Shown here one piece after another: positions 1 to 43,516 of a DNA stretch of 47,699 bases. The stretch's first letter is position 1, and every line of letters begins with the position of its first letter. The notes under the pieces are model-generated. The model did no database searches, had not been told where the DNA came from, and saw only the letters and a list, made by a program, of their open reading frames with translations. A program made the position numbers and the translations under genes. The DNA is from a virus, in the IMG/VR virus record IMGVR_UViG_3300027859_000902, positions 1 through 47,699 of that record; one strand, 5' to 3'.

Positions 1-509
1 TGTTCATTGTGTTGAAATATGATATAATCCCAACGGGCTCTGCCACCTGCTGCAACAAATGCTTTCATATTAGTTTCAACTTTATCCCATTGTACGTTTT
101 GTCTATACAAATGATTTGTATCTGCTAGTCCGTCAACACTAAAAATTACAGCACCGTTGCGTCCAAATACTTGTGCAAGTTCCATCCACCAAGGCATATC
201 TCTGGCACCAGCATTAGTATTCATACTAAGCCACATTGTAGGATTATGTTCTCTAAAATATTTGAATATTTCAAGTGTATCTCTGGCAATAATAGGATCT
301 CCTAAGTTACCACACATATACATTGTTTTTAGTTGTTTTATAAAATCGGGTTTAAAAATTTTCTTTGCTTTTTGTAACGTAATTTCAGCGTTTGTTAAAT
401 GAGGGTTATCATCTCCTCCATTCATATTCCTATCGCACATAGGACAAGCGGCTTGACATTTTTGAGTAACTTCTAAATGTACTTCTTTTATGTCTTCATA
501 TCTATACAT
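1..509 (-). CDS. Radical SAM domain protein, partial (3' end outside window)
   Basis: Reading from an ATG at 509 gives 169 codons open to the window edge, so the C-terminus is missing. The cysteine motif CQAACPMC (C18, C22, C25; CxxxCxxC) is the 4Fe-4S/SAM-binding signature of radical SAM enzymes, followed by beta-alpha units of the expected type (for example TMYMCGNLGDP near residues 65-75 and a SVDG segment near 125). Radical SAM enzymes cleave S-adenosylmethionine to start radical chemistry; the substrate cannot be told from this fragment. The start overlaps the stop of the upstream kinase-like gene by 8 bases, so the two are probably translationally coupled in one operon. It is a second radical SAM gene beside the one at 5796-7169, from which it differs in lacking the long Cys-rich N-terminus. 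Family is secure; function is not. Confidence 0.85.
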   Translation of the reverse strand, partial: MYRYEDIKEVHLEVTQKCQAACPMCDRNMNGGDDNPHLTNAEITLQKAKKIFKPDFIKQLKTMYMCGNLGDPIIARDTLEIFKYFREHNPTMWLSMNTNAGARDMPWWMELAQVFGRNGAVIFSVDGLADTNHLYRQNVQWDKVETNMKAFVAAGGRARWDYIIFQHNE

Positions 510-1146
510 TTTTATTCATATCACTAAATTTACTTTGTAGTTTTTTTCGCTTGTTATTTAATATATCAATTTGTTTGGAGTAATAAAAATCTTGGAAGCT
601 GTTCATAAGTTCCATTTGTGACATATAAAATTTACGTACATACCTCATACTTTCGGACAAATCGAACCATCCAACACTATCTGGATCAACAAGTTTGACT
701 TTACGATCTTTGGTTATAACTAAGTTTGCTAACGTATAATCACCGTGCAATACATACCTGTCGTCATCGTTATCATTATCAAATACACTAGTTTGAAACA
801 TTGATAACCAAGTTGATTGCATTGCAATCATAATATCTAAAAATATTTGTTTATTTAACAAATCCTTATATAATCTTCTATTTTTGTATTCTAATAAATG
901 TTTTACATCGCAGACAATATCCAATTTCTCCATTTCAATTGTATTATGATTATTCGTAGCATAAACTTTTACAAAATAATCGTTATCATTAGTAATCATT
1001 TGATATTGTCTTAACCAACTAGCACTCAAAGGACAAGCTTTAGGTCTATTTTTGCATACCTTCACAATTCTGTTTTCATCCTTTGTATAATAAAGAGTTG
1101 AATTAGGAAAATACAACGGACTTATAGTATTATCTATTTCAATCAT
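502..1146 (-). CDS. APH/choline-kinase-like phosphotransferase
   Basis: 214 residues. The segment HGDYTLAN (H134 to N141) fits the catalytic loop HGDxxxxN of aminoglycoside phosphotransferase and choline kinase folds, and VDPD (D154, D156) fits the metal-binding aspartate motif that follows. The N-lobe segment YFVKVYA near residues 57-63 resembles a nucleotide-binding strand. The family transfers phosphate from ATP to small molecules such as sugars, choline or aminoglycosides, sometimes to proteins. In this operon of sugar-transfer and radical SAM genes a sugar or glycan-precursor kinase role is a reasonable inference. The protein is shorter than typical APH enzymes (about 250-300 residues), so the substrate lobe is small. 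The start overlaps the 74-residue gene upstream by 8 bases. Confidence 0.72.
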   Translation of the reverse strand: MIEIDNTISPLYFPNSTLYYTKDENRIVKVCKNRPKACPLSASWLRQYQMITNDNDYFVKVYATNNHNTIEMEKLDIVCDVKHLLEYKNRRLYKDLLNKQIFLDIMIAMQSTWLSMFQTSVFDNDNDDDRYVLHGDYTLANLVITKDRKVKLVDPDSVGWFDLSESMRYVRKFYMSQMELMNSFQDFYYSKQIDILNNKRKKLQSKFSDMNKNV

Positions 1147-1363
1147 TGTGTATTAACTTCACTTCTTTTCCTGGGCCAACTTTACTAGGCAGATCTCCAT
1201 AGTTGTCTATATACCATTCTATCACAGCCTTGTACCACATTTGACTGTTATGATGTGCTTTTTTGTTGAACATATGTATGTTGTTGTTTGTGGCTTGCAT
1301 TGTACTAAGAGCTCTTGCACTTTCAGTTTGTAATTGTCTTAGTGTAAGTTCATTTATATCCAA
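1139..1363 (-). CDS. Small protein of unknown function
   Basis: 74 residues; I do not recognise it. The N-terminal half is polar and predicted helical (DINELTLRQLQTESARAL). The middle is rich in His/Asn, followed by an aromatic stretch (MWYKAVIEWYIDNYGDLP) and a Gly/Lys tail. There is no signal peptide or membrane segment. It is held in the operon by an overlap with the methyltransferase-like gene upstream (14 bases) and the kinase-like gene downstream (8 bases), which supports it being translated. It could be a small adaptor or a substrate for its neighbours, but nothing in the sequence proves either. Confidence 0.6.
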   Translation of the reverse strand: MDINELTLRQLQTESARALSTMQATNNNIHMFNKKAHHNSQMWYKAVIEWYIDNYGDLPSKVGPGKEVKLIHND

Positions 1364-2393
1364 TTTTCATAAACCTTTTGTATTTAGGCAATTGTAGTTC
1401 TCCTTCATATAACACTGTTGTCATTGGAGATTTATCGCTGAATTCTTCTAGTGTTTTACTGCAATTCACGTGTTCTTCTATTTCAAAATAATCATTTCCT
1501 TGAACAACTATAAATTTATCGTCGGGTATTTTATTATACCAAGTATTGTAATTATCAATATGTTCGGTGCTGGTATTTATTATTGTATCAGGAGTATCCC
1601 ATAATCTTTCAAAATCGCTGCCGCCTTTTTTTGCAACAATATAACAATGCTCTTCAAAATTTATATCGTGTATGTCTTGTATCACAGGCTTGAATTTCCA
1701 TCCATTTATTACCCAATGTTTATTGAATATTTCTGCTATTTTTTCGGTGCTTTCATCTACATCAAAACTTCTAACTTTTTCTAATGTCAATCCTGATTCA
1801 AATAACATTACTGCCAGTGTTCCGTACCAACCTGCACAAAGAAATATAGTTCCAAGATCGATTCCAATTTTTTTAAGTTCTTGTATAACCCATAATTTAC
1901 TTTCTAGCTGTCCTCTGCTGAAGCAATCTTCATCAAATGGAATATCTTCTTTTATCATAGTCTTAAAAGCATATACAAAATGCGTGTCAACATAAGATTG
2001 TATAATTCTCCACAGACTAAAAATATTATCATTTAGAATAAGTCCTTTTAGATCTTCATCTTCTATAAGTCTAAAAATACTGTGTAAGTTATCATCAAGA
2101 ACTGCTTTACGTAAATCGTCATTGCCCGGTAACAATCTAAATAAAGCGTGAAGATTGTGTTCTAAAACTGCTTTACGCAAATCTTCTATTTCACCGACTG
2201 TTCTTTTATTATCAACACATCTAAAAACACTGTTTATGTTTTTTTCTACCACTGCTTTACGTAGTTCTTCTTTGTCGATCAAGCGGAACAAACTAAGAAT
2301 ATCACGATCAATATATGCACGTCTAAGATTTGCAAAACGTTCGTCGTCTGGATAAAGAACTTCAAATCTATCTAATAATTTATATATGTCCAT
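1350..2393 (-). CDS. Helical-repeat protein fused to class I methyltransferase-like domain
   Basis: 347 residues in two parts. Residues 23-131 hold five imperfect repeats with a core like LRKAVLxxNLHxxFRLI, spaced 21-28 residues apart and predicted helical. Residues about 165-347 look like a Rossmann-type SAM-dependent methyltransferase: motif I is FLCAGWYGTLAVML (184-197) and the acidic strand end is SFDVDES (209-215). Motif I is unusual (CAGWYG rather than the common GxGxG). A later segment, IINTSTEHIDNYNTWYN, is at the place where catalytic or substrate residues usually sit. Known family behaviour suggests methyl transfer; the repeats may bind a protein or glycan partner. It overlaps the triplicated glycosyltransferase-like gene upstream by 14 bases, so it belongs to the same operon. 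Substrate unknown. Confidence 0.68.
   Translation of the reverse strand: MDIYKLLDRFEVLYPDDERFANLRRAYIDRDILSLFRLIDKEELRKAVVEKNINSVFRCVDNKRTVGEIEDLRKAVLEHNLHALFRLLPGNDDLRKAVLDDNLHSIFRLIEDEDLKGLILNDNIFSLWRIIQSYVDTHFVYAFKTMIKEDIPFDEDCFSRGQLESKLWVIQELKKIGIDLGTIFLCAGWYGTLAVMLFESGLTLEKVRSFDVDESTEKIAEIFNKHWVINGWKFKPVIQDIHDINFEEHCYIVAKKGGSDFERLWDTPDTIINTSTEHIDNYNTWYNKIPDDKFIVVQGNDYFEIEEHVNCSKTLEEFSDKSPMTTVLYEGELQLPKYKRFMKIGYK
2001..2327 (-). repeat. Five tandem protein repeats, LRKAV...FRLI type
   Basis: Within the methyltransferase-like gene, five units begin at about residues 23, 44, 72, 94 and 115. Each has Leu-Arg-Lys/Arg-Ala at its start and Phe/Trp-Arg-Leu/Ile-Ile at its end. The similarity is also visible in DNA, where versions of actgctttacgtaaatc recur near 2101, 2167 and 2251, suggesting fairly recent duplication. 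Confidence 0.8.
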
Positions 2394-3711
2394 TAAATTT
2401 TTCTCTTAACCAATCAAAGTCGTTGATTAACTTCAAAGCATCTATGTTTCCTTTATTAGCAGTTCCGTACATAGTTCCTTCTTTTGCACCTTTTATTGCA
2501 TATTCTCCATAAGGTTTATCCTTACCAACACTACTCCATATTTTCAAGCGAGTATCAGTTTCGGCTTCTTTTTGTCTATCAATTACTTTACTACTTAGCT
2601 TACAACATTCTCTAAATGCACTTTTCCAAGTTTCAAATTCACCAGTGTTAAATGCAGTAATATTTGATATTTGTTGTATTGCTCTAAACTTATCACTAAT
2701 GCTAGTTGTCATATCAGGTTTACTAGTATCCATAGTAAGTGTCAGTTCTCTTGGAAACAATTTTACTCCACCGTAACCATATACAAGTCCGTTAATAGGA
2801 TTCCTGCTACGCCATACGTGTACGTGATCCCATTGCCAAACAGGAACTTGATAATCAAAATTAAAATCATCAACTATATCAGCATCACCATCTATAATCC
2901 AAAACATTGGAGTTGTGCATATTTTTGCACCTTCTATATGAGCTTGATGTATTCCTTTTACGCCGTGTATTCTTTTGCATTGAGGAAAGCGTTTTAGTAT
3001 GCGATTATAGTTTTCATCAGCGTTAGGTTCCTGATAACTTATAAAAACAATGTCATATGGTTTAGGTTTGCTTACAATTTTGTTATGTTCTTTTTTGTGT
3101 GCAATAAACATAAACTTCCATTCTCTTGCACTAATTTTTGATTTCTTACTGCATAATATAACACCGTCGTGGTGTTCACCATTCAGAAATACGTGATTTA
3201 TTTTTCTATCAAAAGAATTATGATGAGTAAAATATGTGTCAAATTCAAAATCATCCAACAACTCTATAGTAGGCGGAACTAACCAAAACATATCTGTCTT
3301 TGATGCTACTAATGCATTTGCATAATCTTCATATGTATCTGTATAAAAAATATCATATTTTGTTGGCATACTTGCTACAATATTAACTTCTTTTGTGTTA
3401 ACAAAAAATCTATGATCAACTTCTTTTTGTGACACTTGTGCATTTTTTGGTATCAACGAAATACCATCGTATTCGTCATTGTTTAGAAAAACGTGTATAT
3501 AGTCTTGGCTCCATTCATCAGGAACGTAATCAAATAAAAAGTTTTCTTTTATTTCTAAGTCTGGATAAACAACCCACAAAAACTTTGTAATACAAGTACG
3601 TTGTGCTTGTTCTATTGTTTTTACACATTTGACTGTAGGAATACTTTTCTTAAGTCGTTTGTAATCTTCTTCAAACAAACTTTTATCAGCAATTAAAAAT
3701 ACATCATACAT
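2380..3711 (-). CDS. Glycosyltransferase-like protein with three copies of one domain
   Basis: 443 residues built from three related units, about 1-115, 118-216 and 217-443. Shared landmarks are an opening hydrophobic strand (YDVFLIADK, YDIFYTDTYED, YDIVFISYQEP), a middle strand (FLWVVYPDLE, MFWLVPPTIE, MFWIIDGDAD), an FxFDY segment and a HVFLN/HVWRS...DG/NG segment. Only the third unit keeps a DGD/DAD-type acidic motif (D274-D278), the expected nucleotide-sugar/metal site of GT-A glycosyltransferases; the first two look catalytically dead. The third unit clearly resembles the gene at 7171-8091. The role is probably transfer of a sugar to a phage or host glycan, with the dead copies perhaps for binding. 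It is first in its operon, behind a consensus sigma70 promoter whose predicted start falls on the ATG itself. Confidence 0.7.
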   Translation of the reverse strand: MYDVFLIADKSLFEEDYKRLKKSIPTVKCVKTIEQAQRTCITKFLWVVYPDLEIKENFLFDYVPDEWSQDYIHVFLNNDEYDGISLIPKNAQVSQKEVDHRFFVNTKEVNIVASMPTKYDIFYTDTYEDYANALVASKTDMFWLVPPTIELLDDFEFDTYFTHHNSFDRKINHVFLNGEHHDGVILCSKKSKISAREWKFMFIAHKKEHNKIVSKPKPYDIVFISYQEPNADENYNRILKRFPQCKRIHGVKGIHQAHIEGAKICTTPMFWIIDGDADIVDDFNFDYQVPVWQWDHVHVWRSRNPINGLVYGYGGVKLFPRELTLTMDTSKPDMTTSISDKFRAIQQISNITAFNTGEFETWKSAFRECCKLSSKVIDRQKEAETDTRLKIWSSVGKDKPYGEYAIKGAKEGTMYGTANKGNIDALKLINDFDWLREKFNGHI

Positions 3712-3717
3712 ACACTA

Positions 3718-3746
3718 ATTATACTAAAAAAATCCATTCTTGTCAA
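3718..3746 (-). promoter_or_regulatory. Sigma70-type promoter for accessory operon 1
   Basis: On the minus strand TTGACA (3741-3746) is followed by exactly 17 bases and TATAAT (3718-3723): a full consensus match. Only six bases separate the -10 box from the ATG at 3711, so the expected transcript begins at or next to the start codon, with no ribosome binding site. Confidence 0.85.
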
Positions 3747-3752
3747 TATTAG

Positions 3753-3760
3753 AATAAATA
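3753..3760 (+). promoter_or_regulatory. Late-type promoter element for fibre gene
   Basis: AATAAATA, close to the T4 late element TATAAATA, lies 17 bases before the ATG at 3778. It is followed by a good ribosome binding site AGGAG (3767-3771). The same arrangement recurs before structural genes on the other strand, most closely before 43462, where TAAATACATT and AGGAG are also shared. Confidence 0.7.
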
Positions 3761-3777
3761 CATTGTAGGAGAAAAAT

Positions 3778-5223
3778 ATGACTGATTTTATACCTGGCGA
3801 TTCGTATCGAATAGATATTGTAGGTGCTGATAGTACTTTAATTATAGATAGTTGGCTAAGCCACATAAAAGCAAATGTTGTTAACAAAGACGGCATAGTG
3901 CAAGTTGACACAACATTTGGTAAACTATATGGACCTATGGTAGGTAATGTTGAAAATGAAGAAGGCGATGTATTAATTAATGCAGCAAGTCGCACTGTTC
4001 ATATGGACGTTGTAGGAAATGTTAAAGACAACGCAAATAACGTTATATTAGATGCTGCACGTAGTTTAATCAAAGGTAATTTCGAAGGCAATATTGTAAA
4101 TTCTGCTGGGGATATGATTTATGATGCTAATACAAAAACGTTAGTTGTTGACAGAATTGTAGGTGATACATACGGAAAACACCACGGCGAAGTAGACTTA
4201 GTAGGTAATGTAAATGGTACATTTATGGGTAACCTAATAGGTCCAAGTAATGGTGTACATTCAGGAACTGTTTTAGGAGATGTAACAGGTAACTTGAAAG
4301 GTAATATTGTTTACGAAAACGGTGACATTATTGTTGACGGATCAAACGGAACAGTTAACGGAAATTTAAAAGGCGGAATATTAACACCGGATGACGAACA
4401 CGTATTAACTTGGAATGACACTTTAAAACATCACGTATTAAGAGCAGGACTTGAACATCCAGATTCAAAAAGTGCTGTGCTGAAACTAGGAAACACCGAC
4501 AGAGAAACAATGTACAAAGGTAACATTGCATACTGGGACGATGATCCTGTGCTTACTTTAATGGCTTGGGAAGGCACAGATAAACCAAGTGTGCTTGCAG
4601 AGTATAGAGGAAGTGTAATTGGCGAAGTATTTGATGAAACTAAAGCACCGGTGCTTACTGTAAATGAAGGACAAGTAAGACTAGAAGGCGGCGCAACAGG
4701 CGAAATTAATATTGGTTACAATAGTACAGAAACAATACAAGTATATGCTGACAATATAAGTTTTAAACTACAATCAAATCCAGTTAACACTTCTAACTTA
4801 GGACAAGTCAATTATTTTGCTTTTAACGGTGATCACGAAAATATGCTTCCACTAAACCCTGGAGATCATATGATGGTAAACACTGTACACGCTTGGGACG
4901 GGTTGGCATATAAAATTGGAGGTGGCTTTGGTTTTTATGCAAACACAGACGTAACACCAGATCCAGACTTAGAAATATATCCAACAGATTTTGCAATTAC
5001 GTTGAGTGATGGAAGAAGTTTACCTAGTGCATTTTGGGATAATCCAACTGGCTTAAATTTTGACGGTAGAGGTGTTTTATCAGTACCAATTATGAAGTCA
5101 AAAGGATTTACAGAAGCTGAAAAAACTGACATTGATTTTGCAGATGAAGGTATGATTATATTCAATAAATCAACTAAAAAGTTTCAAGGTTACAACGGCA
5201 CTAGTTGGGTTGATTTAGGATAG
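3778..5223 (+). CDS. Tail-fibre-like structural protein with Gly-rich beta repeats
   Basis: 481 residues. Residues about 50-215 hold repeating short strands with turns such as GNVENEEGDVLINA, GNVKDNANNVILDA, GNIVNSAGDMIYDA and GNIVYENGDIIVDG, which suggests a beta-helical or beta-prism shaft. The C-terminus ends in GMIIFNKSTKKFQGYNGTSW, a tip sequence type common in phage tail fibres and in other structural proteins. It probably acts in host recognition or decorates the virion. It is the only plus-strand gene in the first 43 kb, flanked by two minus-strand accessory operons, but carries a late-type promoter like the structural genes, which supports a virion role. Its 3' end overlaps the GNAT-like gene tail to tail by 23 bases. 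I cannot assign a receptor. Confidence 0.72.
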   Translation: MTDFIPGDSYRIDIVGADSTLIIDSWLSHIKANVVNKDGIVQVDTTFGKLYGPMVGNVENEEGDVLINAASRTVHMDVVGNVKDNANNVILDAARSLIKGNFEGNIVNSAGDMIYDANTKTLVVDRIVGDTYGKHHGEVDLVGNVNGTFMGNLIGPSNGVHSGTVLGDVTGNLKGNIVYENGDIIVDGSNGTVNGNLKGGILTPDDEHVLTWNDTLKHHVLRAGLEHPDSKSAVLKLGNTDRETMYKGNIAYWDDDPVLTLMAWEGTDKPSVLAEYRGSVIGEVFDETKAPVLTVNEGQVRLEGGATGEINIGYNSTETIQVYADNISFKLQSNPVNTSNLGQVNYFAFNGDHENMLPLNPGDHMMVNTVHAWDGLAYKIGGGFGFYANTDVTPDPDLEIYPTDFAITLSDGRSLPSAFWDNPTGLNFDGRGVLSVPIMKSKGFTEAEKTDIDFADEGMIIFNKSTKKFQGYNGTSWVDLG

Positions 5224-5803
5224 GTATAACTTCCTCTGCTTCAGACCATCTAGACAAAGATAAAGTTTCATAAAATTTATCAACATTAATTTTCCAAAAA
5301 GTTTGGAATGTACCTTTGTATTCAAGTTCTAACGGATTTTGTAGAACACCAGCTTTATGGAAATACTTTGCCCAAAAATTATGGACTTTGTTTTGACTAC
5401 CAACATCACCAGTATGTGTGCTAAGATACAAGGGTTTATCTCTGCCAACGCCTTCTATACACGCAGGCAATAAAAATTGCGAAGCGTGTGAATAGTGTAT
5501 ATCAGTTTTACCTTTCAGACTTTTTACTCTATCTTTTCCTATTAGATGTGTTAACACACAAGTTCTTGCACCTATTCTGTAAGCATCTTTTCCTAATATT
5601 CCAAGTTCTTCTAACTTATGTGCTACTACTGTACCAACAACATTATTATTATGTAACAATAACCAAAGTTTAGCATCTTCATATTTTTTAATATAATCAA
5701 TAAGCATTTCTTGACTGCTATTATTATAGAACTTTTTCTTGTGTGCTTCTATAAAAAATTCAGATAAATCTACATCGTTATTGTATAATTTTATTTTAAA
5801 CAT
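5201..5803 (-). CDS. GNAT-like acyltransferase family protein
   Basis: 200 residues from the ATG at 5803. A longer frame opens at 5851, but that start would overlap the radical SAM gene by 56 bases; the 5803 start gives an 8-base overlap, the same as at three other junctions in these operons. The segment LWLLLHNNNVVGTVVAHKLE (about residues 46-65) followed by YRIGART resembles the central strands of N-acetyltransferase folds, with VVGT at the beta-4 position. I see no clear Q/RxxGxG/A acetyl-CoA motif, so the call is tentative. It is last in accessory operon 2, directly after the radical SAM gene, suggesting a joint modification step. Its last codons overlap the convergent fibre gene. Confidence 0.5.
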   Translation of the reverse strand: MFKIKLYNNDVDLSEFFIEAHKKKFYNNSSQEMLIDYIKKYEDAKLWLLLHNNNVVGTVVAHKLEELGILGKDAYRIGARTCVLTHLIGKDRVKSLKGKTDIHYSHASQFLLPACIEGVGRDKPLYLSTHTGDVGSQNKVHNFWAKYFHKAGVLQNPLELEYKGTFQTFWKINVDKFYETLSLSRWSEAEEVIPILNQPN

Positions 5804-7169
5804 ATGTTTCGCATAAATCAAAAAATTCTGCCATTTCTGGAAAAACTTCAATATGATTTACTCCACGTCTTCTATTTTGTTCTTTAAAAAATTTGTGGAA
5901 GTCCTGACGTCCTTGTATAACTTTTTCTAATGGATATTCAGTTCTTTCCATATAATCTACAACACGTCTAAACTTTTCATATTCTAATGTACTAAATGCA
6001 TCTTTGCGTTCATCGTCAACGTTTTCTTTTATAAACTGCAAATGATCACGCATATAACTTAAATATTCTTTGGGCAATATATTCATATCGTATTGCAGTG
6101 GTTCTTTTAAGTGTGGTGTATCAAAACCTAAACGCTGCCATCTATGCGTTTCTACGTCATTATACTTACCACGCCATTCTAATATTTTTTCAAGTAATGT
6201 TCTAAATGTAGTTACACTAAAAATATTGAATGTAATCATTAGCACCATTGGTGCATCACAGTTACGCATAAAATAATCTAAGTTACGTTCAAAAACTTCA
6301 ATATCTAATCCGTCACGAATATATTCTGCACGTTTACCCCAAGTATCAATACTTGTAAACATTTTAAAACGTCTTATTTTATTATTTGTCAATAAATGAT
6401 TTACACGGTCGGTAAACTTTGCAAGTTGTTTTGGCTTACCTCCTAAGTTACTATTACAGTTAAGTTCTAGTTCTGGTTTTGGATCTGCATCAAGCATATC
6501 AAATAGTCTGTATGTACTTTGCTGTATTGTAGGTTCGCCACCAGTAATACGTAGAATATGTAATTCTTTACTGAGCTCTGGCCACCATTTCCAAAAAGCA
6601 TCTAAATAAGGATTGTTTTCTTCTTGATATATTTTAAACCAATCAATATCACATCTATGATTTTGAACCATATCATATGGACCGTGCTGTTTTATTTCTT
6701 GATAAAATCTACTGCTGGCTTTTGGATGACAATATCCACAACGGAAGTTACACTCATTACCAAAACTAACTTCTAAGTATTCTGGATTTACGTCAAACTC
6801 TGCGCCACCTTCTTTTACTGCTTTTAGTCTATGTTTGAAGAAAATAGTTTGATTACGTTGCTTTCTGTCACTAACATAATCTTTACCCATTGCTTCAATC
6901 TTCCAGCAATAGTTACAACCAGCAGGTTGCTCGCCACGCATCATAGCGGCACGTTCTTTTTTCTTTTGTGCTGTGTTGTGTATAGCACTTGGATTTTCTA
7001 GTAAGGGTGCAGTATCAATCTTATGAGGAGCGGGATGATAACAACTATGTGTTTCACCTGTTTGAAAATATATGTTAGCGTGATACCATTTTGCAAAACA
7101 AAACGTAGGAGATATTTCCTGCGTAATTGTATCAATACGTTTGATCTCTTCGCTTTCGCTGCGTTCCAT
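5796..7169 (-). CDS. Radical SAM protein with Cys-rich N-terminal region
   Basis: 457 residues. CNFRCGYC (C140, C144, C147) is the radical SAM CxxxCxxC motif, preceded by the strand YLEVSFGNE; LRITGGEPTIQ carries the GGEP SAM-contact motif. Upstream, C24, C43, C85 and C88 (SCYHP, GCNYCW) could hold an extra iron-sulfur cluster, as in twitch/SPASM-type enzymes, although here these cysteines lie before rather than after the core domain. Such enzymes often modify peptides or carry out sugar chemistry. The gene follows the glycosyltransferase-like gene by one base and overlaps the GNAT-like gene by 8 bases. Radical SAM assignment is secure; substrate is unknown. Modification of a carbohydrate or of a virion protein is inference from the operon. 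Confidence 0.88.
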   Translation of the reverse strand: MERSESEEIKRIDTITQEISPTFCFAKWYHANIYFQTGETHSCYHPAPHKIDTAPLLENPSAIHNTAQKKKERAAMMRGEQPAGCNYCWKIEAMGKDYVSDRKQRNQTIFFKHRLKAVKEGGAEFDVNPEYLEVSFGNECNFRCGYCHPKASSRFYQEIKQHGPYDMVQNHRCDIDWFKIYQEENNPYLDAFWKWWPELSKELHILRITGGEPTIQQSTYRLFDMLDADPKPELELNCNSNLGGKPKQLAKFTDRVNHLLTNNKIRRFKMFTSIDTWGKRAEYIRDGLDIEVFERNLDYFMRNCDAPMVLMITFNIFSVTTFRTLLEKILEWRGKYNDVETHRWQRLGFDTPHLKEPLQYDMNILPKEYLSYMRDHLQFIKENVDDERKDAFSTLEYEKFRRVVDYMERTEYPLEKVIQGRQDFHKFFKEQNRRRGVNHIEVFPEMAEFFDLCETYV

Positions 7170-7170
7170 T

Positions 7171-8091
7171 TTACTCTCTAGCCAAAAACTGTTTGCTATT
7201 ATCTCTTATTGGATTTTGGTACACAGTCTTAAAAAACTTGCTCTGCCCGGCATCTAATGGCTCTATTGCTATAGGCAATAAAAGTTCATTAATAAGTTTA
7301 ACACCGTAATCTTCAGTAGCAAGAAACATAGCTTCATCATCTAGTTTTTTGTTATCCCAATATTCATTTAAATATTTAAAATCTCTAACATTTATATGGT
7401 CCCAATCTGTACACATTGTTTTGTACAAACCTTCTCTAGCACCATAAATTGCCCAACGTCCGTATTCTATATCTGCACCTACCATAAGCCAAATATACAA
7501 ACGATGTAAATTCTTCCAATGGTTGTTGTTAAAATTATCTATAGATACACGTTCGCCTCTATCCAATGCCATTTTGACACCTTCTCTAAATCCTGCTCTC
7601 CACGCTTGATGTGGTGTGCCATTGTTGTGTATATCACTGAATGTGCCTTCCATTTGCACATATTCAGTATTCCAACAAAAATCTACTTGAGCGTGTGGAT
7701 TATCAACAGGCGCATTTTCGTGTGTTTTCATATCCAGAACATATTGTTTAGGCCAACACTTTATACCACCATTGCCATACGATAAACCATTAATAATATT
7801 TTTTGCTGTCCAACTTATAACTTTATCAGTTAGATCTAAATTTTCATCAAAATTAATTGCTTGTGATAAAAAATCATCACGTATACAATTATCTCCGTCA
7901 ACTGTAATAAATCTATCTGTATCGCTAAGTTCAGCACAGGCTTTATGGGCACTGTCGCTGCCTTCTACTCCGTGTACACGCTTTGCCCAAGGCACTTTTC
8001 TACACAAATCTGCATAGTTTTTTTCTGCATTAGGTTCATCATAACTTAGATAAACAATATCATAATCTATAACACGGAACGTATTAGCCAT
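7171..8091 (-). CDS. Glycosyltransferase-like protein, single-domain relative of 2380-3711
   Basis: 306 residues. It opens with YDIVYLSYDEPNAEKNYADL and later RVHGVEGSDSAHKA, ITVDGDN (D65, D67) and INGLSYGNGGIKCWP, each matched in order in the third unit of the protein at 2380-3711 (YDIVFISYQEPNADENY, RIHGVKGIHQAH, IIDGDAD, INGLVYGYGGVKLFP). The DGD motif is the likely nucleotide-sugar/metal site of a GT-A fold. The second half contains HQAWRAGFREGVKMAL and a conserved-looking RLYIWLMVGAD...YGRWAIYGAREG block shared with the relative. It starts 8 bases inside the preceding gene and is followed one base later by the radical SAM gene. Probable role: sugar transfer onto a glycan or protein; acceptor unknown. 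Confidence 0.7.
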   Translation of the reverse strand: MANTFRVIDYDIVYLSYDEPNAEKNYADLCRKVPWAKRVHGVEGSDSAHKACAELSDTDRFITVDGDNCIRDDFLSQAINFDENLDLTDKVISWTAKNIINGLSYGNGGIKCWPKQYVLDMKTHENAPVDNPHAQVDFCWNTEYVQMEGTFSDIHNNGTPHQAWRAGFREGVKMALDRGERVSIDNFNNNHWKNLHRLYIWLMVGADIEYGRWAIYGAREGLYKTMCTDWDHINVRDFKYLNEYWDNKKLDDEAMFLATEDYGVKLINELLLPIAIEPLDAGQSKFFKTVYQNPIRDNSKQFLARE

Positions 8092-8644
8092 TTACAACCT
8101 CGTGGTAGTACGTAGAAAACTTTCTTATAGTATAAAGGCTAACGCTAACATTGTCAAATTCAAACTTGCTATCAAAAGGTATTTTTTTAGTTTTACTAAA
8201 GTCTAAAGTTTTATACAAAACATTAGGGTCGTATAATTTAGTTACACTATAAACTTGATTACTAGGATCAATAGATATACTTTGAGATTCAACATAATCT
8301 AAAAATTTTTTATCTAGTTCTAGTTCCCAACATTGATCGACATTATTTTGTTTTATTTTTATTTCATATGTATCTTCAACTTCGTGTGGTATTTCATACA
8401 CAAAATTTTGTGTATCAAAACTTTCATTGTATTGTTGCCTGCTTTTTAAAACATATTTCTTTTCTACAAAATCATATTCAACTTTGTAGTCACGTAGTGA
8501 TTCCTTGCCTTCATTAAAATGTCTGACATCTTCAAAATCTACTAACAAGTTTTCAAAGTTTTCATCAGGTTTACGTGTAATTTTATCAATTACTCCGTTT
8601 TCATCAAAACAAACATATCTGTCTGTGCTAATTGTAATTCTCAT
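8084..8644 (-). CDS. Protein of unknown function, beta-rich
   Basis: 186 residues with no family I recognise. It is rich in charged and aromatic residues in alternating patterns (YKVEYDFVEKKYVLKSRQQY, TYEIKIKQNNVDQCWELELD), suggesting beta-strands. There is no signal peptide, membrane segment or clear catalytic motif. It sits between two glycosyltransferase-like genes, touching the upstream gene (one-base overlap) and overlapping the downstream gene by 8 bases, so it is an integral member of the operon. It could be an acceptor or a structural component, but that is speculation. Confidence 0.6.
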   Translation of the reverse strand: MRITISTDRYVCFDENGVIDKITRKPDENFENLLVDFEDVRHFNEGKESLRDYKVEYDFVEKKYVLKSRQQYNESFDTQNFVYEIPHEVEDTYEIKIKQNNVDQCWELELDKKFLDYVESQSISIDPSNQVYSVTKLYDPNVLYKTLDFSKTKKIPFDSKFEFDNVSVSLYTIRKFSTYYHEVVNG

Positions 8645-9486
8645 TATAATCCTAAATATTTCTCATATACAGTAATTATACGATTTTTAACAAAGTTATC
8701 TTCTGTATAATGAAAAACACCAGTTTGTGTATAATTACCTATTTTAAGTTGTAAGTCCTCACCTAAATATGTGCCTACACGATTTTGCCAACTATCTATT
8801 ACACTGTTTTGCCAATTTTGTATTCTTGGTTTCATATGTATAAAGCTAGGATATTTAGCACGTGGATTTGTAACTTTATTTTCTATACCCATAATTTTTA
8901 CAGCAATAGCACTTGATAAATCTATACTACATTTACGTTGATACATTTTACCACCTGTGTGTTGCCTGTAAAATTGCTGCCAATTATTTGTAATCATTTC
9001 TAACCAGGTATAAAACTCGTGTGCAATATCTGATTTTTTATAGTAATGTAATCCACTATACAAGTTTGGTAGTTTATTTTTTGAAAATGTATGTCTATAG
9101 TAATCATTTGTAACAAGTTCATTTCTATATGTGTAAACATTGCTTGTAAAAAATAAATCATAATTTTTTAAGAAATTAAACCAGTTGCTTATATCTTGTA
9201 ACACAAGCATATCAGTATCCATAACAATACATTCATCATATGGTGTAGCGTGATATGTTTTCCATCTATTTTCTATCTTCCAATCACTATCTTCAGCGTG
9301 GTCGCCCCAAGGTATTTCTACTATGTCATCAAAAACTTGTTTGTATTTGTCTTGCACTGTGTCATTTGTTATTAAACATATTTTTGCATTTTCGTTGGTT
9401 GCACGAATGCTCATAGCATTTAAATATGCTTGTTGCACATAATCTACTTCAGTGTTTTGTGCGAGCATTGTAAAGTTATTACTCAT
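8644..9486 (-). CDS. GT8-like glycosyltransferase
   Basis: 280 residues. The order of features fits nucleotide-sugar transferases of the GT-A type: an N-terminal strand and helix (DYVQQAYLNAMSIRATNENA), then KICLITND, and YDECIVMDTDMLVL with the DxD metal motif at D90-D92. The late segment LPNLYSGLHYYKKSDIA matches the position where such enzymes carry an acceptor-side motif, and SFIHMKPRIQNW supplies a histidine that may bind the diphosphate. It is a paralogue of the next gene upstream (9479-10303), sharing the SPYDE/TPYDE...VMDTD block. Overlap with that gene is 8 bases. Likely role: modification of a surface glycan or of virion protein during infection. Confidence 0.72.
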   Translation of the reverse strand: MSNNFTMLAQNTEVDYVQQAYLNAMSIRATNENAKICLITNDTVQDKYKQVFDDIVEIPWGDHAEDSDWKIENRWKTYHATPYDECIVMDTDMLVLQDISNWFNFLKNYDLFFTSNVYTYRNELVTNDYYRHTFSKNKLPNLYSGLHYYKKSDIAHEFYTWLEMITNNWQQFYRQHTGGKMYQRKCSIDLSSAIAVKIMGIENKVTNPRAKYPSFIHMKPRIQNWQNSVIDSWQNRVGTYLGEDLQLKIGNYTQTGVFHYTEDNFVKNRIITVYEKYLGL

Positions 9487-10303
9487 CCATAACTCTCGCT
9501 AAACTAAACTTATTCATAACGTGTAAATTACTTCCTTTGAATTTTACAAAAGTATATTCGCCAAGTCTATCTTGTTTTTCTACCAAAACTTGAAATACAT
9601 CATCTTTTATTGATAGTAATATATCTCTATCAATTGCATAAAACTTTTTACCAGGCAATGTACCAACAAAGTTATTTTTTGTATAACCAGATAATATATG
9701 CACAGCTATGCTAAATGCAAAATCATTTCTATATACAGTATTTTTAAATTGATAAACACCTCTATAGTGCATATAGTTTTCTTTAATATGTTTTATTAAG
9801 TTAAAAAATATTTCACTGATATCATTTTTCTTAAAATAAACTACAGTAGCCCAATAAAAATCTATACCGCTGTCACTAATAGATTGAAATTCTGGTGTAC
9901 CGTTATATATTCCTAAATGTGTTGCATCTTTATATAATAAAATACTTTTGTTTTGTTCAAAACAATTTAACAACTTATCATTTGCAACAATATAATCAGT
10001 ATCCATTACAATAGTTTCATCATAAGGAGATAAATCAAAACTATTTTCTCTACCGTAATTATTAAATGCAAGCACACGTTTACTAAGTGATCCATCCCTA
10101 TAGGCTTTACGGCTTGTCAAACCCTTTTCTACTTTGATTACTTGATCAAAATACTTGCCAAAACAATCACATTTGTCTATATCAGTAACTATACTTACTG
10201 GTAAATTTAAATATTTTTTTATGCGATTTGCACAAAAAACAGCTTGCTTAACGTAATTTATGCTTTCATTGTTAAATGCAAATAGCAGTACGCCTTGGCT
10301 CAT
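9479..10303 (-). CDS. GT8-like glycosyltransferase, paralogue of 8644-9486
   Basis: 274 residues. The N-terminus GVLLFAFNNESINYVKQAVF followed by LPVSIVTDID and YDETIVMDTDYIV (DxD at D101-D103) fits a GT-A nucleotide-sugar transferase. Order and spacing of these blocks match the downstream paralogue, though overall identity looks modest, so the duplication is old or the pair has diverged in substrate. A segment with TVVYFKKNDISEIFFNLIKH parallels the HYYKKSDIAHEFYTWLEM block of the partner. It overlaps the 115-residue gene upstream by 4 bases (ATGA) and the paralogue downstream by 8, so expression is probably coupled. Acceptor unknown. Confidence 0.7.
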   Translation of the reverse strand: MSQGVLLFAFNNESINYVKQAVFCANRIKKYLNLPVSIVTDIDKCDCFGKYFDQVIKVEKGLTSRKAYRDGSLSKRVLAFNNYGRENSFDLSPYDETIVMDTDYIVANDKLLNCFEQNKSILLYKDATHLGIYNGTPEFQSISDSGIDFYWATVVYFKKNDISEIFFNLIKHIKENYMHYRGVYQFKNTVYRNDFAFSIAVHILSGYTKNNFVGTLPGKKFYAIDRDILLSIKDDVFQVLVEKQDRLGEYTFVKFKGSNLHVMNKFSLARVMDE

Positions 10304-10647
10304 AAATTCATAATACTTTCAACTGATCTTTCTTGCATAAGTTTATTATAGTCTGTTAAGAATCTATTTGAATATGATTGATAATTATTTAGAATTGCAT
10401 TTGTAAATTCTTGTAAATCGTGACAGTCAACAGGAATGTCATTATCATCAATTAAAATTGTTGACTCTTGTTCAAGAGAAAGTAAACTTTGACAAAAACT
10501 TATAAGTTCACGTGTGATAGAAAACTGTCCGCCTTTGTAATGCAGTACAAGATTTTCTTTATATTGTTCTTTGAGTAATCTTTTTTGATTATCAAAAGTT
10601 GCCATATAATTACTAATTTCAAGTGCTTTTTCTAGGCGTTCGTCCAT
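10300..10647 (-). CDS. Small conserved phage protein of unknown function
   Basis: 115 residues, predicted mostly helical, with a central segment HYKGGQFSITRELISFCQSL and an acidic patch ILIDDNDIPVD. It resembles a small hypothetical protein I associate with marine T4-like phages, from memory only; no function is known to me. It is first in accessory operon 2, with a strong ribosome binding site (AGGAGA, 10653-10658) five bases before the ATG and a sigma70-type promoter further up. Early expression is therefore likely. It overlaps the next gene by 4 bases. Confidence 0.65.
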   Translation of the reverse strand: MDERLEKALEISNYMATFDNQKRLLKEQYKENLVLHYKGGQFSITRELISFCQSLLSLEQESTILIDDNDIPVDCHDLQEFTNAILNNYQSYSNRFLTDYNKLMQERSVESIMNL

Positions 10648-10673
10648 AGTTATCTCCTATCTATACGATGTAT

Positions 10674-10702
10674 AGTATATAACTAAATTTTAGCATTGTC
10701 AA
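10674..10702 (-). promoter_or_regulatory. Sigma70-type promoter for accessory operon 2
   Basis: On the minus strand TTGACA (10697-10702), 17 bases, then TATACT (10674-10679). The -35 box begins four bases past the stop of the preceding structural gene, so late transcripts from upstream could also run into this operon unless stopped. Predicted leader is about 20 bases and contains AGGAGA. Confidence 0.8.
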
Positions 10703-10705
10703 TGG

Positions 10706-11791
10706 TTAAAGTGAACTATTTACTGCACCTGTGGGTGCTGTTTGTACAATCGCATCAAACGTACTTGCGCCAATATTAAAAGTACTATTAGGTGTATAAG
10801 TAAAAAGATTACTTGTAATTGTACCAGTAACTTGTTCGTCAGTTGGTGAACCTTGCTCGCCTGATTCTACCTGATAACCTGTACCTGTATCACTGTCATC
10901 AAATATAATTTCAAATATCATTTGACTGGTGTTTGGAATTACTAAATTGATTTGATATTCGTTATCATCATAAATTTGGGTACTAGGAATACCACCCGGA
11001 TTACCTCCTGAAACACCACCACCTTGTTTTGTATATAACCTAGTAGCACTGTTAAAAAATCCACCACTAGTTGCACTGTTTGTGCTTATTGAACCTAGTG
11101 AATATTCGCTACCAGTTCCGCCTGTTCCTAATGATTCTGTAAAATAGTTTGTTGCTTTTTTCCAAAAACGTATTTTGCCCATTTCATTAAGAATACGTTG
11201 CCAATCCTGATCTTTACTGTTTGCTGTACCACTTGTACCGCCTGTCAAACTAGCATCAAAACGTATTTGTCCGCCGGCATTAAAATAATGATTACGTGCA
11301 TTTGCACTACTCCAGCTAACAGTTACTCTATGACCTATTCTATAATTAGCACCTGTACCCCAATTACTGCTTCTTACACTTGATACACTTGTACTACTTG
11401 TTGTGAGCATACCAGCTTCGTCAAAATTAGCAACAGGAAATTCAGTGGTATTTCTGTTAAATGATGTTAAATCGTTGACAAACAATTGAAAGTCTGTTAT
11501 GTTGGCCCACTCGATTATATCTCCTACATCAACTCTGTTTAATGCTATTCGTGTATTATCTGTGCCAAACTGATGTATATGTCCAGCTTGTAAATCTTTC
11601 CAAATATTGTATTGCTGTAAACTGGTAATCACATCGCTAACACCAGGAGTGCTGCCTCCAACAACTAAGCCACTTAAAAGTGTACGTCCGTATCCAAGAT
11701 TTACGTTACTTGTAGTAGGGCCAACAATTGGCGACATAAGATTATGGATACCATTATAGTCTGATGCAAGTATTGGTGTTCCGACTGGCAT
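10706..11791 (-). CDS. Virion structural protein, paralogue of 11801-12982
   Basis: 361 residues, rich in Ser, Thr, Gly and Asn, as is usual for fibre or baseplate decorations. The segment HYFNAGGQIRFDASLTGG followed by DQDWQRILNEMGKIRFWK is matched in the next gene by GFFNAGGELRFTASIVNL and TTDWAAMLTNMGTIKFNF, so the two share a domain (here about residues 165-215). The N-terminus PVGTPILASDYNGIHNLMSP is a short structural lead. No enzymatic motif or membrane segment is seen. It is last in the late structural unit, with its ATG nine bases past the stop of its paralogue and AAGGAGT as ribosome binding site. Exact place in the virion is unknown; near the tail fibres is inferred from position. 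Confidence 0.65.
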   Translation of the reverse strand: MPVGTPILASDYNGIHNLMSPIVGPTTSNVNLGYGRTLLSGLVVGGSTPGVSDVITSLQQYNIWKDLQAGHIHQFGTDNTRIALNRVDVGDIIEWANITDFQLFVNDLTSFNRNTTEFPVANFDEAGMLTTSSTSVSSVRSSNWGTGANYRIGHRVTVSWSSANARNHYFNAGGQIRFDASLTGGTSGTANSKDQDWQRILNEMGKIRFWKKATNYFTESLGTGGTGSEYSLGSISTNSATSGGFFNSATRLYTKQGGGVSGGNPGGIPSTQIYDDNEYQINLVIPNTSQMIFEIIFDDSDTGTGYQVESGEQGSPTDEQVTGTITSNLFTYTPNSTFNIGASTFDAIVQTAPTGAVNSSL

Positions 11792-11800
11792 TAAGACTCC

Positions 11801-12982
11801 TTACAAACTTTGTATTCTCGTAATCGTAGGAGTGACGTTTTCAACATATGGTCCTGTTGCACGATATTCTGAAAGTACACTAGTCAATTCTCCTCCTACT
11901 CTTTCGTCAGCTCCTCCAGAGCCATTAGCGTCATCTGTAAATTCTACTTTGAATTGTATTTGTTTTGCACTGTTTTCTTTAGCGTATATTATGTAATCAT
12001 TTTCTATGTATACGCCACTACCTGTTTTAGTATATATTACTTGATATGAACTTGTCAAGTCATAATTTCCAATAGCACTACCGGTACCAACATTATTTGA
12101 ACTTACAGTATCTGCAAAATTAAATTTTATTGTTCCCATATTTGTGAGCATAGCAGCCCAGTCTGTTGTTTTTTGATAATTATCATCACCTGGTGAAGGT
12201 AAGTTTACAATACTTGCTGTAAATCTTAATTCGCCTCCAGCGTTGAAAAAACCTCTACGATTGTTTGCATCAGCAAAGGTTACTGTAAATTCGTGAACCA
12301 CTTGTTGAGGAGTAGATGTACCGCCCCATAAATCTGTACGTGTTACTGAATCTTTTACTGCTGGATCAGCTTGTGTAGAATCTACATTATGTTTTGCATT
12401 TTCACATAATGTTGTTAATGATTCATATGTTTGATATGATTCTTCTCCAATTGTATGAAAAAATGATCCACCTGACGTATAAGTTCCCCAACTAACATCA
12501 CCAATAGGATTAGTTAAAGGTGTTCCTGATGTTCTATCATAATTGCTGTATAATTCAAATTCAGTTGCACTCAATACTTTGGCATAACCAGAAACTTTGT
12601 TTAGTTGTGTCATACCGTTAACACCAATAATATAATCAACCCACAAACCTTCAATTAGCATATGTACTTCGTTTGTTTGTATTGTAACTACATTGTTATT
12701 TAAAGTATTAATATAAGCATTTGCAATAGTGATTTGTGTAGCATTGTCTTTAACTTGCTTAATTAATGCTGTTGGTTCTGTACCAACTTGATGTGTTCTA
12801 ATTTTTATTAGATCAGCATATAGTGCATTCATTTCAGTAGCAAGGACTAAGTTTTCTTTTGGTACCTGGGTAGAAGTAACAGCTTGGTTATATCCACTTG
12901 TTCCTACGCCTACTCCTAAAAGATTACCAATTCTTGATTGTAAAAAATTGTACCTCGCAGCAGAAATTATTTGATTTACCAT
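11801..12982 (-). CDS. Virion structural protein, fibre-associated
   Basis: 393 residues. The N-terminal part (VNQIISAARYNFLQSRIGNL, NALYADLIKIRTHQVG) looks helical and may form an attachment or trimer region; the rest is beta-rich. Residues about 240-300 share the FNAGGELRF...DWAAMLTNMGTIKF domain with the following gene. It has its own candidate late element (TATAAGTA, 13001-13008) 18 bases before the ATG, overlapping the stop codon of the preceding fibre gene, and an AAGGTGA-type ribosome binding site. I do not recognise a T4 counterpart. It is probably a tail or fibre component made late. Confidence 0.65.
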   Translation of the reverse strand: MVNQIISAARYNFLQSRIGNLLGVGVGTSGYNQAVTSTQVPKENLVLATEMNALYADLIKIRTHQVGTEPTALIKQVKDNATQITIANAYINTLNNNVVTIQTNEVHMLIEGLWVDYIIGVNGMTQLNKVSGYAKVLSATEFELYSNYDRTSGTPLTNPIGDVSWGTYTSGGSFFHTIGEESYQTYESLTTLCENAKHNVDSTQADPAVKDSVTRTDLWGGTSTPQQVVHEFTVTFADANNRRGFFNAGGELRFTASIVNLPSPGDDNYQKTTDWAAMLTNMGTIKFNFADTVSSNNVGTGSAIGNYDLTSSYQVIYTKTGSGVYIENDYIIYAKENSAKQIQFKVEFTDDANGSGGADERVGGELTSVLSEYRATGPYVENVTPTITRIQSL

Positions 12983-13000
12983 ATACTTTCACCTTTTATA

Positions 13001-13008
13001 TACTTATA
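13001..13008 (-). promoter_or_regulatory. Candidate late-type promoter element
   Basis: TATAAGTA on the minus strand, one mismatch from T4 TATAAATA, 18 bases before the ATG at 12982. It is the weakest of the set because it departs from the shared TAAATA core, but the spacing fits. Confidence 0.45.
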
Positions 13009-14533
13009 CTTTAAGCACACACTCAACTAGTTTCTCATCTTCATTATCATTAGACTCTAATGCTATTCCAACAAGTGCTACTGTGTTTACAATACCAACC
13101 ATAACATTTTCATAAGTGCCGCAAACGCCATTTTCCCAAGCATAAACTGCTTCGCCTTTAGCAACAGCACCTTTTACTCTTACAGGAAGTCTTCCTTTTA
13201 AACCAATGTATTGCCCGTCAGCATCGCTGTTCATCATATATGCTGGATCTGTAGATACAACACCTATAGGCATATCACTATGATTTGCAGGGCATACTTC
13301 GCAATCAACGTCTCCGCATACTGCTACTGCTGTTCCTGGTGCTAATTCTGAACCAGTTTTATATTTTTCTGCTAAGTCAGCATACCTAGCACGAGTTGCT
13401 GTACCTGTAAATACATTTGCAACAAGATTACCATTTGAGTCTCTAACTGCTACTGTGTCTGGATCACTTGTAACTGATCCTATACGATCATTTCCTCCAA
13501 CAACAAGCGCATTTGCTTTTGTAGCTGTACCACTGAATGTTGTTGCGTGTACTGTATTCCAACGTAGACTTGCTGTACCAAGTTTATACGCATTATCAAT
13601 GCCTGGTACAAGTGCAATATCTGCACCATTTGTAAATCTTGCAATTTCAAGTAAGCCAGTGCCTGATGTATATGTTTGAAATTTTATTTCATCTCCAATA
13701 AGATTAGATAGTGTTGCTTCGTTGCCGTTTGTTACGTGCATTTGAAAGTCTAAACTATCGCCAACCTTGATACCAGCATCGTCCTGAAAGTCTACAGATA
13801 AACCAGGGCCTACACTTCTAATAAATTGACTAGAATCTAATCCGTCAAATTTAAGAGAGTTACTTGCGGTTCCCCAAAAGTATGGTAAAACTGTATCATC
13901 ATCTACACCTGTTACACCTGTACTTGGTGTTCTAATAAGTGTAATACCTTTTTTCACAGCTGGAAAATGTCCTGGAATATCATAATCGTCTAATGAAGCA
14001 GGCTGATTACTACTTGGTGTAAAAGCAACATCACTAGTCATAAAAATTGGATTGTTATCGATTAATGCAATTATTACTGGTACTGTTACATCTGATGGCG
14101 AAGTTGCAACATTTGTACTTAATAATTGTGTTGTTCCTGATCCAGCAGCTTGTGGACCTACAAGAATAAATTCATTTGCACTAGTTCTTGCAAATAACTG
14201 ATTAGTATTGCTGTTATACCAAAGGTCACCTTCAACAAGTCCTGCTGGTTGCGAAGAGCTTACTTCTGCACCGCCTGCTGTTTTCCAGGTTGTTCCTGTA
14301 TAATATTTTAGTTTGTTTACTGAACTATCAAACCAAACTTGTCCGCTTAGTGCTTTGCTTGGACTAGTTGCTCCTGCAAAACTTTCTAATAAAAACAAAA
14401 AGTTTTCGTTTTGCGCTTCGCCATATCCACTATAGTTCTTACCAATTAATTTCAAGTCAGTTGTATTATCAACTGTACCGTCCTCAAGCGATAGTAGCTG
14501 CTCTCCGCTAAATCTGTTAATTATGTATGCCAT
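13004..14533 (-). CDS. Tail fibre protein with shared N-terminal domain and Cys-containing C-terminal domain
   Basis: 509 residues. Residues about 20-130 (TDLKLIGKNYSGYGEAQNEN, LSGQVWFDSS, LKYYTGTTW) are the N-terminal domain shared with the next two fibre genes, probably the part that attaches to the tail. The middle is beta-rich. The C-terminal third begins ARYADLAEKYKTGSELAPG and includes a cysteine cluster CGDVDCEVC (near residues 403-411), followed by VRVKGAVAKGEAVYAWENG, a domain type common at the end of phage fibre proteins. Cysteines are rare in such proteins and the cluster could bind metal. It has its own late-type promoter. Likely role: host-surface contact. Confidence 0.75.
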   Translation of the reverse strand: MAYIINRFSGEQLLSLEDGTVDNTTDLKLIGKNYSGYGEAQNENFLFLLESFAGATSPSKALSGQVWFDSSVNKLKYYTGTTWKTAGGAEVSSSQPAGLVEGDLWYNSNTNQLFARTSANEFILVGPQAAGSGTTQLLSTNVATSPSDVTVPVIIALIDNNPIFMTSDVAFTPSSNQPASLDDYDIPGHFPAVKKGITLIRTPSTGVTGVDDDTVLPYFWGTASNSLKFDGLDSSQFIRSVGPGLSVDFQDDAGIKVGDSLDFQMHVTNGNEATLSNLIGDEIKFQTYTSGTGLLEIARFTNGADIALVPGIDNAYKLGTASLRWNTVHATTFSGTATKANALVVGGNDRIGSVTSDPDTVAVRDSNGNLVANVFTGTATRARYADLAEKYKTGSELAPGTAVAVCGDVDCEVCPANHSDMPIGVVSTDPAYMMNSDADGQYIGLKGRLPVRVKGAVAKGEAVYAWENGVCGTYENVMVGIVNTVALVGIALESNDNEDEKLVECVLKV

Positions 14534-19156: not shown

Positions 19157-19164
19157 TATTTATC
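19157..19164 (-). promoter_or_regulatory. Late-type promoter element
   Basis: GATAAATA on the minus strand, 16 bases before the ATG at 19140. It overlaps the last codons of the giant baseplate gene. AAGGAT (19147-19152) is the ribosome binding site. Confidence 0.65.
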
Positions 19165-43480: not shown

Positions 43481-43488
43481 TATTTAGT
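43481..43488 (-). promoter_or_regulatory. Late-type promoter element for baseplate operon
   Basis: ACTAAATA on the minus strand, 18 bases before the ATG at 43462, followed by ATTATAGGAG. The core TAAATACATT and AGGAG match those before 3778. It touches the -35 box of the divergent gp55 promoter. Confidence 0.65.
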
Positions 43489-43516
43489 TGACAAAAATAA
43501 GTGCGTAGTTTATAAT
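43488..43516 (+). promoter_or_regulatory. Sigma70-type promoter for gp55
   Basis: TTGACA (43488-43493), 17 bases, TATAAT (43511-43516): full consensus. Predicted leader is about 16 bases and includes AAAGGA before the ATG at 43539. Confidence 0.88.

Follow-up and report, generated by a model that had tools for sequence, protein, structure and literature searches.

What do glycosyltransferases and radical S-adenosylmethionine (SAM) enzymes do on either side of a phage tail-fibre gene? The locus that raises this question occupies positions 1-10647 (enzyme genes on the minus strand) of IMG/VR virus record IMGVR_UViG_3300027859_000902, a 47.7-kb fragment (47,699 nucleotides, hereafter the window). 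A sequence-only reading had placed here two early-type operons around a late fibre gene and proposed that they jointly build a modification; the gene block and its coordinates were confirmed, and the joint role is well supported by near-invariant linkage, strong selection and a clean split between early and late promoters (classes that we assign from sequence motifs). Some of its counting needed amendment: the block holds 12 minus-strand genes (g1-g5 and g7-g13, Table 1) instead of eleven; nine of these do look like enzymes, with weaker calls for the kinase, methyltransferase and GNAT members; and the fibre gene is not a lone one, three further fibre-like genes lying just past the block at 10706-14533. 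The earlier reading covered only the fibre-proximal edge of a far larger island. Our preferred answer, held tentatively and at somewhat less than an even chance, is a cytosolic pathway that decorates the tail fibre.

The core of the block travels as a unit. The same gene order recurs in more than 100 distinct IMG/VR loci (relatives are denoted L or G as IMG/VR loci or contigs, and many are fragments), and patterns for g8 and g9 matched 427 and at least 598 IMG/VR stretches, respectively. In 50 of 54 g9-baited loci the gene immediately after g9 is an N_Twi radical SAM gene, and in all 51 g8-baited loci g9 immediately precedes g8; the genes were thus found linked in related phages, and not singly and apart, the pattern that the earlier reading had named as contrary to its proposal. 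Genes g11, g12 and g13 are all present upstream in 42 of 53 g9-baited loci (52 of 53 have two or more of them), the fibre gene g16 lies at most 7 kb upstream of g9 in 67 of 74, and the second operon (g5, g4, g3, g1) stands back to back with fibre gene g6 in most relatives that have this operon. Among some 50,700 annotated phages, tblastn found no homologue of g9, g10, g11, g12 or g13, similarity to g8 was confined to two Vibrio phages (27%), and megablast with window positions 1-12000 gave no match.

Within this linkage group g8 is the most conserved protein, at 92, 91, 89 and 87% identity between the window and contigs G009-G012, as against 64, 64, 64 and 66% for the baseplate wedge of the same contigs; phage accessory enzymes are seldom more constrained than the baseplate of their phage. 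In the most distant relatives g8 is only 34-53% identical and no longer better conserved than the wedge. At fourfold-degenerate sites of g8 and g9, identity is 33-62% once the closest relative is set aside, against a random expectation of ~40%; with protein identity high and these sites near random, the enzymes have long been kept under strong purifying selection. Recent transfer as the source of the high g8/g9 identity was rejected on the same near-random level. The strong differences between phages in the content downstream of g8 and of g3 would be expected of a loose set of acquired accessory genes that share no function, an account that we consider highly improbable: core order is near invariant, constraint exceeds that on the baseplate and synonymous sites are saturated, and for the core cassette the account is disfavoured.

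As the sequence-only reading had it, each operon pairs a radical SAM protein with a glycosyltransferase-like protein of the same family (g8 with g9, g1 with g5). The g8 protein matches the N_Twi_rSAM model NF033640 over its full length (304 bits against a cut-off of 170, model positions 1-398 of 398), and 21 relatives share invariant cysteines both in the N-terminal auxiliary-cluster region (C24, C43, C85, C88) and in the CX3CX2C motif (C140, C144, C147). Matches of g1 fall just under the curated bit cut-off for PF04055 (E 1.1e-5) and also below cut-off for NF033640 (E 1e-14); these and its CX3CX2C motif (CQAACPMC) place it, as a sequence-based assignment, in the radical SAM superfamily. A full-length relative of g1 (361 aa, L003:14526-15611) has a SPASM-like Cys-rich C-terminus.

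Genes g9 and g5 encode one family (BLASTP E 7e-37) for which Pfam, PHROG, NCBIfam and PDB sequences gave no above-threshold match. The AlphaFold2 model of g9 (predicted local distance difference test, pLDDT, 86.6) has a GT-A fold, which Foldseek relates to GT-A enzymes at a probability of ~1 but with template modelling (TM) scores of 0.3-0.5; D65 and D67 of its DGD motif are invariant in a 34-sequence alignment, and D274 and D276 are invariant in g5. On this modelling, g9 and g5 are predicted GT-A-fold glycosyltransferases, and the g9 family is apparently new and phage-restricted. N-terminal tandem modules in g5 resemble its own glycosyltransferase core without the DxD, and their number differs among relatives. 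A genome scan gave bacterial g9 matches at seven loci, all on metagenome-assembled genome (MAG) contigs with N_Twi radical SAM arrays nearby; as these contigs look like binned phage and are uninformative on hosts, bacterial homologues were rejected as functional context. Four such g9-bearing loci with radical SAM arrays are phage-like (L159 and L163, 335-kb and 153-kb contigs titled Neomarinimicrobiota MAG; L160; L161), and L159 and L163 also carry the baseplate wedge. The remaining pair, g11 and g12, are predicted GT8 glycosyltransferases: g11 by a profile match to glycogenin/GT8 (E 6e-4) with D90 and D92 invariant, and g12 through its homology to g11 (hhalign probability 99.3, E 1e-20) with D101-T-D103 invariant.

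The promoters claimed for the two operons proved to be strict sigma-70 matches (12/12 before g5, 11/12 before g13), and a third (11/12) precedes g9 in the window. Scores of at least 11/12 occur in 62 of 81 distinct upstream sequences of g13, 33 of 68 of g9 and 33 of 49 of g5, with nearly none in shuffles, and in 20 of 73 upstream of g14. The remaining enzyme genes score at chance level: no sequence upstream of g12, g11, g10, g4 or g3 reaches a score of 11, and g8 and g1 each have a single sequence scoring 12/12, which for g8 is a contig-end artefact. The late T4-like motif [GTA]ATAAATA, by contrast, precedes g6 in 31 of 31 distinct relatives (shuffled, 0.065) and fibre gene g16 in 49 of 61, but never the enzyme genes, and g13 in 1 of 80. 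The -10 box of the g5 promoter ends 6 nt ahead of the ATG, which would place the transcript start at the start codon and makes a leaderless mRNA probable; judged by their motifs, several enzyme operons apparently have leaderless early mRNAs. A near-perfect sigma-70 promoter with its -10 box ending 5-6 nt ahead of the start codon is also seen at several enzyme or radical SAM operons deeper in the G009, G001 and G008 islands. The late sigma factor gene of the window has a perfect sigma-70 promoter itself (~43488-43516).

Early expression, as these promoters predict, would also suit enzymes acting on phage DNA, one of the substrates that the sequence-only reading had offered; here the glycosyltransferases and radical SAM enzymes would hypermodify DNA much as T4 glucosylates hydroxymethylcytosine. 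The thymidylate-synthase-family protein in four large relatives is, however, a canonical ThyA carrying the dUMP motif PFNIASY, and a PF00303 search of 12 records gave ThyA-type members only and none of the dCMP-hydroxymethylase type (the other contigs are fragments, in which absence is weak evidence). The fold points the same way, for the T4 DNA glucosyltransferases are GT-B enzymes, unlike the GT-A glycosyltransferases here. Glycan hypermodification of DNA by phage glycosyltransferases has precedent (cited in PMC12619734), but with canonical ThyA only we disfavour phage DNA as the substrate, find T4-type glucosylation not supported and regard DNA hypermodification as very unlikely.

In most relatives genes for tailoring enzymes follow the fibre gene g6 in its own orientation. 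The fibre strand also carries g7 in 46 of 53 relatives, and in many the same-direction genes between fibre and g7 encode an AMP-ligase (E 6e-17), an FAD halogenase (E 7e-69) or a TauD dioxygenase (E 4e-15). Its position and this shared late operon make the fibre the best acceptor candidate. In a subgroup of relatives (L012, L097, L072) a 248-aa gene of the fatty-acid desaturase family (L012 tested) lies between g8 and the fibre.

The window reaches only the start of a larger enzyme island. In 20 relatives we count 4-22 radical SAM domain matches each (up to 21 with the N_Twi_rSAM model), most of these radical SAM genes sitting in a 30-50 kb stretch that adjoins the window's operons. This stretch further encodes eight Asp/Arg hydroxylase-family (PF05118) open reading frames (ORFs), four nitroreductases, two FkbM methyltransferases, a halogenase, an AMP-ligase, a UDP-glucose dehydrogenase, a DegT aminotransferase, an Asn synthase and a SET domain, to which inspection by eye adds several SGNH-like hydrolases, an amidinotransferase-like protein and an epimerase. 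Signal peptides are absent from all 161 island ORFs, and just two of these pass the membrane-span threshold (1.9): a g4 homologue at 1.95, a borderline value, and an 81-aa ORF that overlaps others and is probably spurious. The same scan recovered 5 spans in the polymerase and 7 in the flippase of the E. coli K-12 O-antigen locus; with that control positive and virtually no spans in the island, an O-antigen or capsule export locus was rejected. The lack of signal peptides and near lack of spans make a cytosolic acceptor likely.

We propose that a large cytosolic pathway for tailoring may be housed in the tail-fibre (host-recognition) block, with the two operons as its conserved first part. Early in infection, host RNA polymerase would transcribe the glycosyltransferases (g12, g11, g9, g5), the radical SAM enzymes g8 and g1 and their helpers; acting as one pathway, these enzymes would build up, in the cytoplasm, an oligosaccharide or a comparable group, presumably a glycan, whose chemistry the radical SAM enzymes, hydroxylases, halogenases and methyl- and acyl-transferases of the island would then vary. 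Late in infection the fibre would be made together with more tailoring enzymes from its own operon, and the group would be attached to it before virion assembly, altering receptor binding or shielding. Island families with polypeptide-acting members (the PF05118 hydroxylases and the SET domain) count in favour of fibre decoration. A stronger form of this idea, in which a tailoring factory (~20 twitch radical SAM enzymes, four GT-A glycosyltransferases, halogenases, hydroxylases and acyl-transferring enzymes) diversifies the fibre chemically and phages change host range or shielding by exchanging enzymes and not the fibre sequence alone, seems to us rather unlikely.

Several observations weigh against fibre decoration. 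The fibre remains a candidate acceptor, and the early promoters suit a host-directed function at least equally well. The island's nucleoside diphosphate (NDP)-sugar dehydrogenase, epimerase, DegT, FkbM and SGNH-like genes are typical of surface polysaccharide loci, for which the host may supply flippase and ligase, and PF05118 also includes the lipid A hydroxylase LpxO. The window's own clade is without the AMP-ligase, halogenase and TauD genes and has g7 flipped to the enzyme strand; in some relatives a fatty-acid desaturase stands beside the fibre.

The main rival draws on much of this: the pathway would remodel a surface glycan of the infected host (lipopolysaccharide O-chain or similar), for instance to block superinfection by competitors. 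Early sigma-70 promoters and the NDP-sugar and O-chain-type genes of the island fit such a role, as does the published interpretation of GT8 and related genes, found with radical SAM genes in pelagimyophage islands, as O-chain modification (PMC7029224). Yet among the 161 island ORFs no flippase, polymerase or signal peptide was found, and the cassette lies within a tail-fibre block in which tailoring enzymes sit in the fibre's late operon; we hold remodelling of the host surface to be unlikely, if still a substantial possibility. The mixture of many twitch radical SAM enzymes, halogenase, AMP-ligase, nitroreductases, amidinotransferase-like and Asn-synthase proteins also resembles secondary metabolism, as though the island made a diffusible small molecule or a peptide akin to ribosomally synthesized and post-translationally modified peptides against host or competitors, with g3 as a possible precursor or accessory peptide. 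That product is improbable in our estimation: carrier-protein domains are absent among the reported island Pfam families, no exporter was found in the island, and g3 is conserved over its whole length without the variable core of a precursor (survey of ORFs of at least 60 aa).

Comparable islands have been described, and to the extent of the text available the accounts of those in Campylobacter phages CP220/CPt10, pelagimyophages and a TARA contig name no product or substrate (PMC2853527, PMC7029224, PMC5332604). The present island is a much larger version of these unexplained islands with a near-invariant core of its own. CP220/CPt10 are likewise T4-related, with a radical SAM cluster and amidinotransferase in modules exchanged en bloc, and CP220 has two nucleotide-diphospho-sugar transferases beside the radical SAM module and a tail-fibre gene nearby; they are described as having 11-12 radical SAM genes per genome (PMC2853527), whereas up to 22 domain matches occur per fragment here, and by tblastn they have no homologues of g9, g11, g12 or g13 and radical SAM similarity of ~22-37%. 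The host recognition cluster of pelagimyophages such as Mosig EXVC030M is described with fibre-linked GT8/lipopolysaccharide-type genes, radical SAM cassettes, Asp/Asn hydroxylases, GNAT, nitroreductases, aminotransferase and methyltransferase (PMC7029224). Some Mosig genes are homologous to those of the present island (up to 66%), but the cluster is without the g13-g12-g11-g10-g9-g8 core (tblastn) and the long N_Twi radical SAM array. An Asp/Arg hydroxylase at L169:904-1536 is 66% identical to Mosig EXVC030M 54701-55324 (a SAR11 phage), a hint of host overlap. TARA_ERS488813_N000010, likened to our locus by description only, is a marine T4-like genome with 12 radical SAM genes reported as Fe-S metabolism, the available account describing no fibre linkage, glycosyltransferase core or promoters (PMC5332604). 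Mycobacteriophage glycosyltransferases do glycosylate virion proteins (Freeman 2023, cited in PMC12619734), and Foldseek matched g9 to, among others, a Che8 glycosyltransferase, which need not be the one studied there; the targets in that system are capsid and tail tube, no radical SAM enzyme is described, and the likeness of g9 is that of the generic GT-A fold.

Hundreds of marine viral contigs thus keep a radical SAM/glycosyltransferase core beside a tail fibre, extended to as many as 22 radical SAM domains. If the fibre is the acceptor, phage host range gains a chemical layer beside protein sequence; if the host surface is the target, the island would be an exceptionally elaborate system for superinfection exclusion or receptor masking. 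In both cases it offers candidate radical enzymes.

Table 1. Genes and promoter elements of the enzyme block and its fibre-like flank (window coordinates).
Feature	Position	Strand	Basis
g1, radical SAM, 3' part cut by window end	3-509	-	PF04055 and NF033640 below cut-off; full gene in relative
g2, APH/kinase-like, occupant of variable slot between g3 and g1	502-1146	-	weak APH matches, motifs
g3, conserved 74-aa protein	1139-1363	-	conserved at 62-99% identity among 15 distinct relatives; follows g4
g4, N-terminal helical repeats and methyltransferase-like C-terminal domain	1350-2393	-	invariant loop in relatives
g5, GT-A-like glycosyltransferase of g9 family	2380-3711	-	BLASTP to g9
Putative sigma-70 promoter of g5 operon, TTGACA-17-TATAAT	3718-3746	-	12/12 consensus score
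Late-type promoter motif AATAAATA of fibre gene g6	3753-3760	+	[GTA]ATAAATA in 31/31 distinct relatives
g6, fibre gene, late promoter	3778-5223	+	repetitive Gly/Asn-rich fibre-like sequence
g7, GNAT-like	5201-5803	-	weak profile match
g8, N-terminal-twitch radical SAM enzyme	5796-7169	-	NF033640 above cut-off
g9, predicted GT-A-fold glycosyltransferase, apparently new family	7171-8091	-	alignment, AlphaFold2 model, Foldseek
g10, 186-aa beta-rich protein	8084-8644	-	AlphaFold2 model
Putative internal sigma-70 promoter ahead of g9, within 3' end of g10	8129-8157	-	11/12 score
g11, predicted GT8 glycogenin-like glycosyltransferase	8644-9486	-	profile match
g12, GT8-like, diverged relative of g11	9479-10303	-	hhalign to g11
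g13, conserved 115-aa protein, first gene of operon	10300-10647	-	upstream of glycosyltransferase genes in 82/83 loci with room
Putative sigma-70 promoter of g13 operon, TTGACA-17-TATACT	10674-10702	-	11/12 score
g14, g15, g16, fibre-like genes flanking enzyme block in relatives	10706-14533	-	g16 PHROG matches including tail fibre, E 2e-17

The other proteins of the two operons are less firmly assigned. The earlier calls of a kinase (g2), a methyltransferase (g4) and a GNAT protein (g7) remain weak, drawing on motifs and on library matches below threshold. For g2 the APH matches fall short of cut-off (Pfam E 0.011, NCBIfam 6e-4) and the HGDxxxxN and DPD motifs are present; elsewhere its slot holds a nitroreductase, an SGNH-like gene, a radical SAM gene, or a glycosyltransferase-like gene with a nucleotide-sugar dehydrogenase. 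The variation across L097, L103, L128, L049, L083, L012 and L019 resembles that of a cassette-exchange site. About five 24-aa helical repeats (LRKAV...HSIFRL) precede the methyltransferase-like part of g4, whose FLCAGWY loop is invariant in 20 relatives; Pfam and PDB profiles gave the methyltransferase assignment no support, and a g4 relative shows 27% similarity to a Mosig EXVC030M protein annotated as a methyltransferase. No Pfam or NCBIfam match was found for g7, its best PDB profile being a protein acetyltransferase at E 0.54 only; its homologues begin at the ATG (200 aa), and the upstream TTG start at 5851 is unlikely. The g10 model (pLDDT 83.5, predicted TM score 0.61) matched no known fold, and no PDB match fell below E 0.26.

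Beyond the enzyme block the window encodes a late sigma factor, SbcCD-like genes and the baseplate wedge, which is 34-37% identical to jumbo-phage wedges (e.g., those of Atu_ph07 and SCTP-2). On our reading the block belongs to a clade of uncultured marine T4-like/jumbo myophages. The first 12 kb of the window contain no tandem repeats. A 4592-aa virion structural protein (phrog_10938) is encoded on the 13.8 kb (19160-32938) that separate the fibre block from the baseplate wedge.

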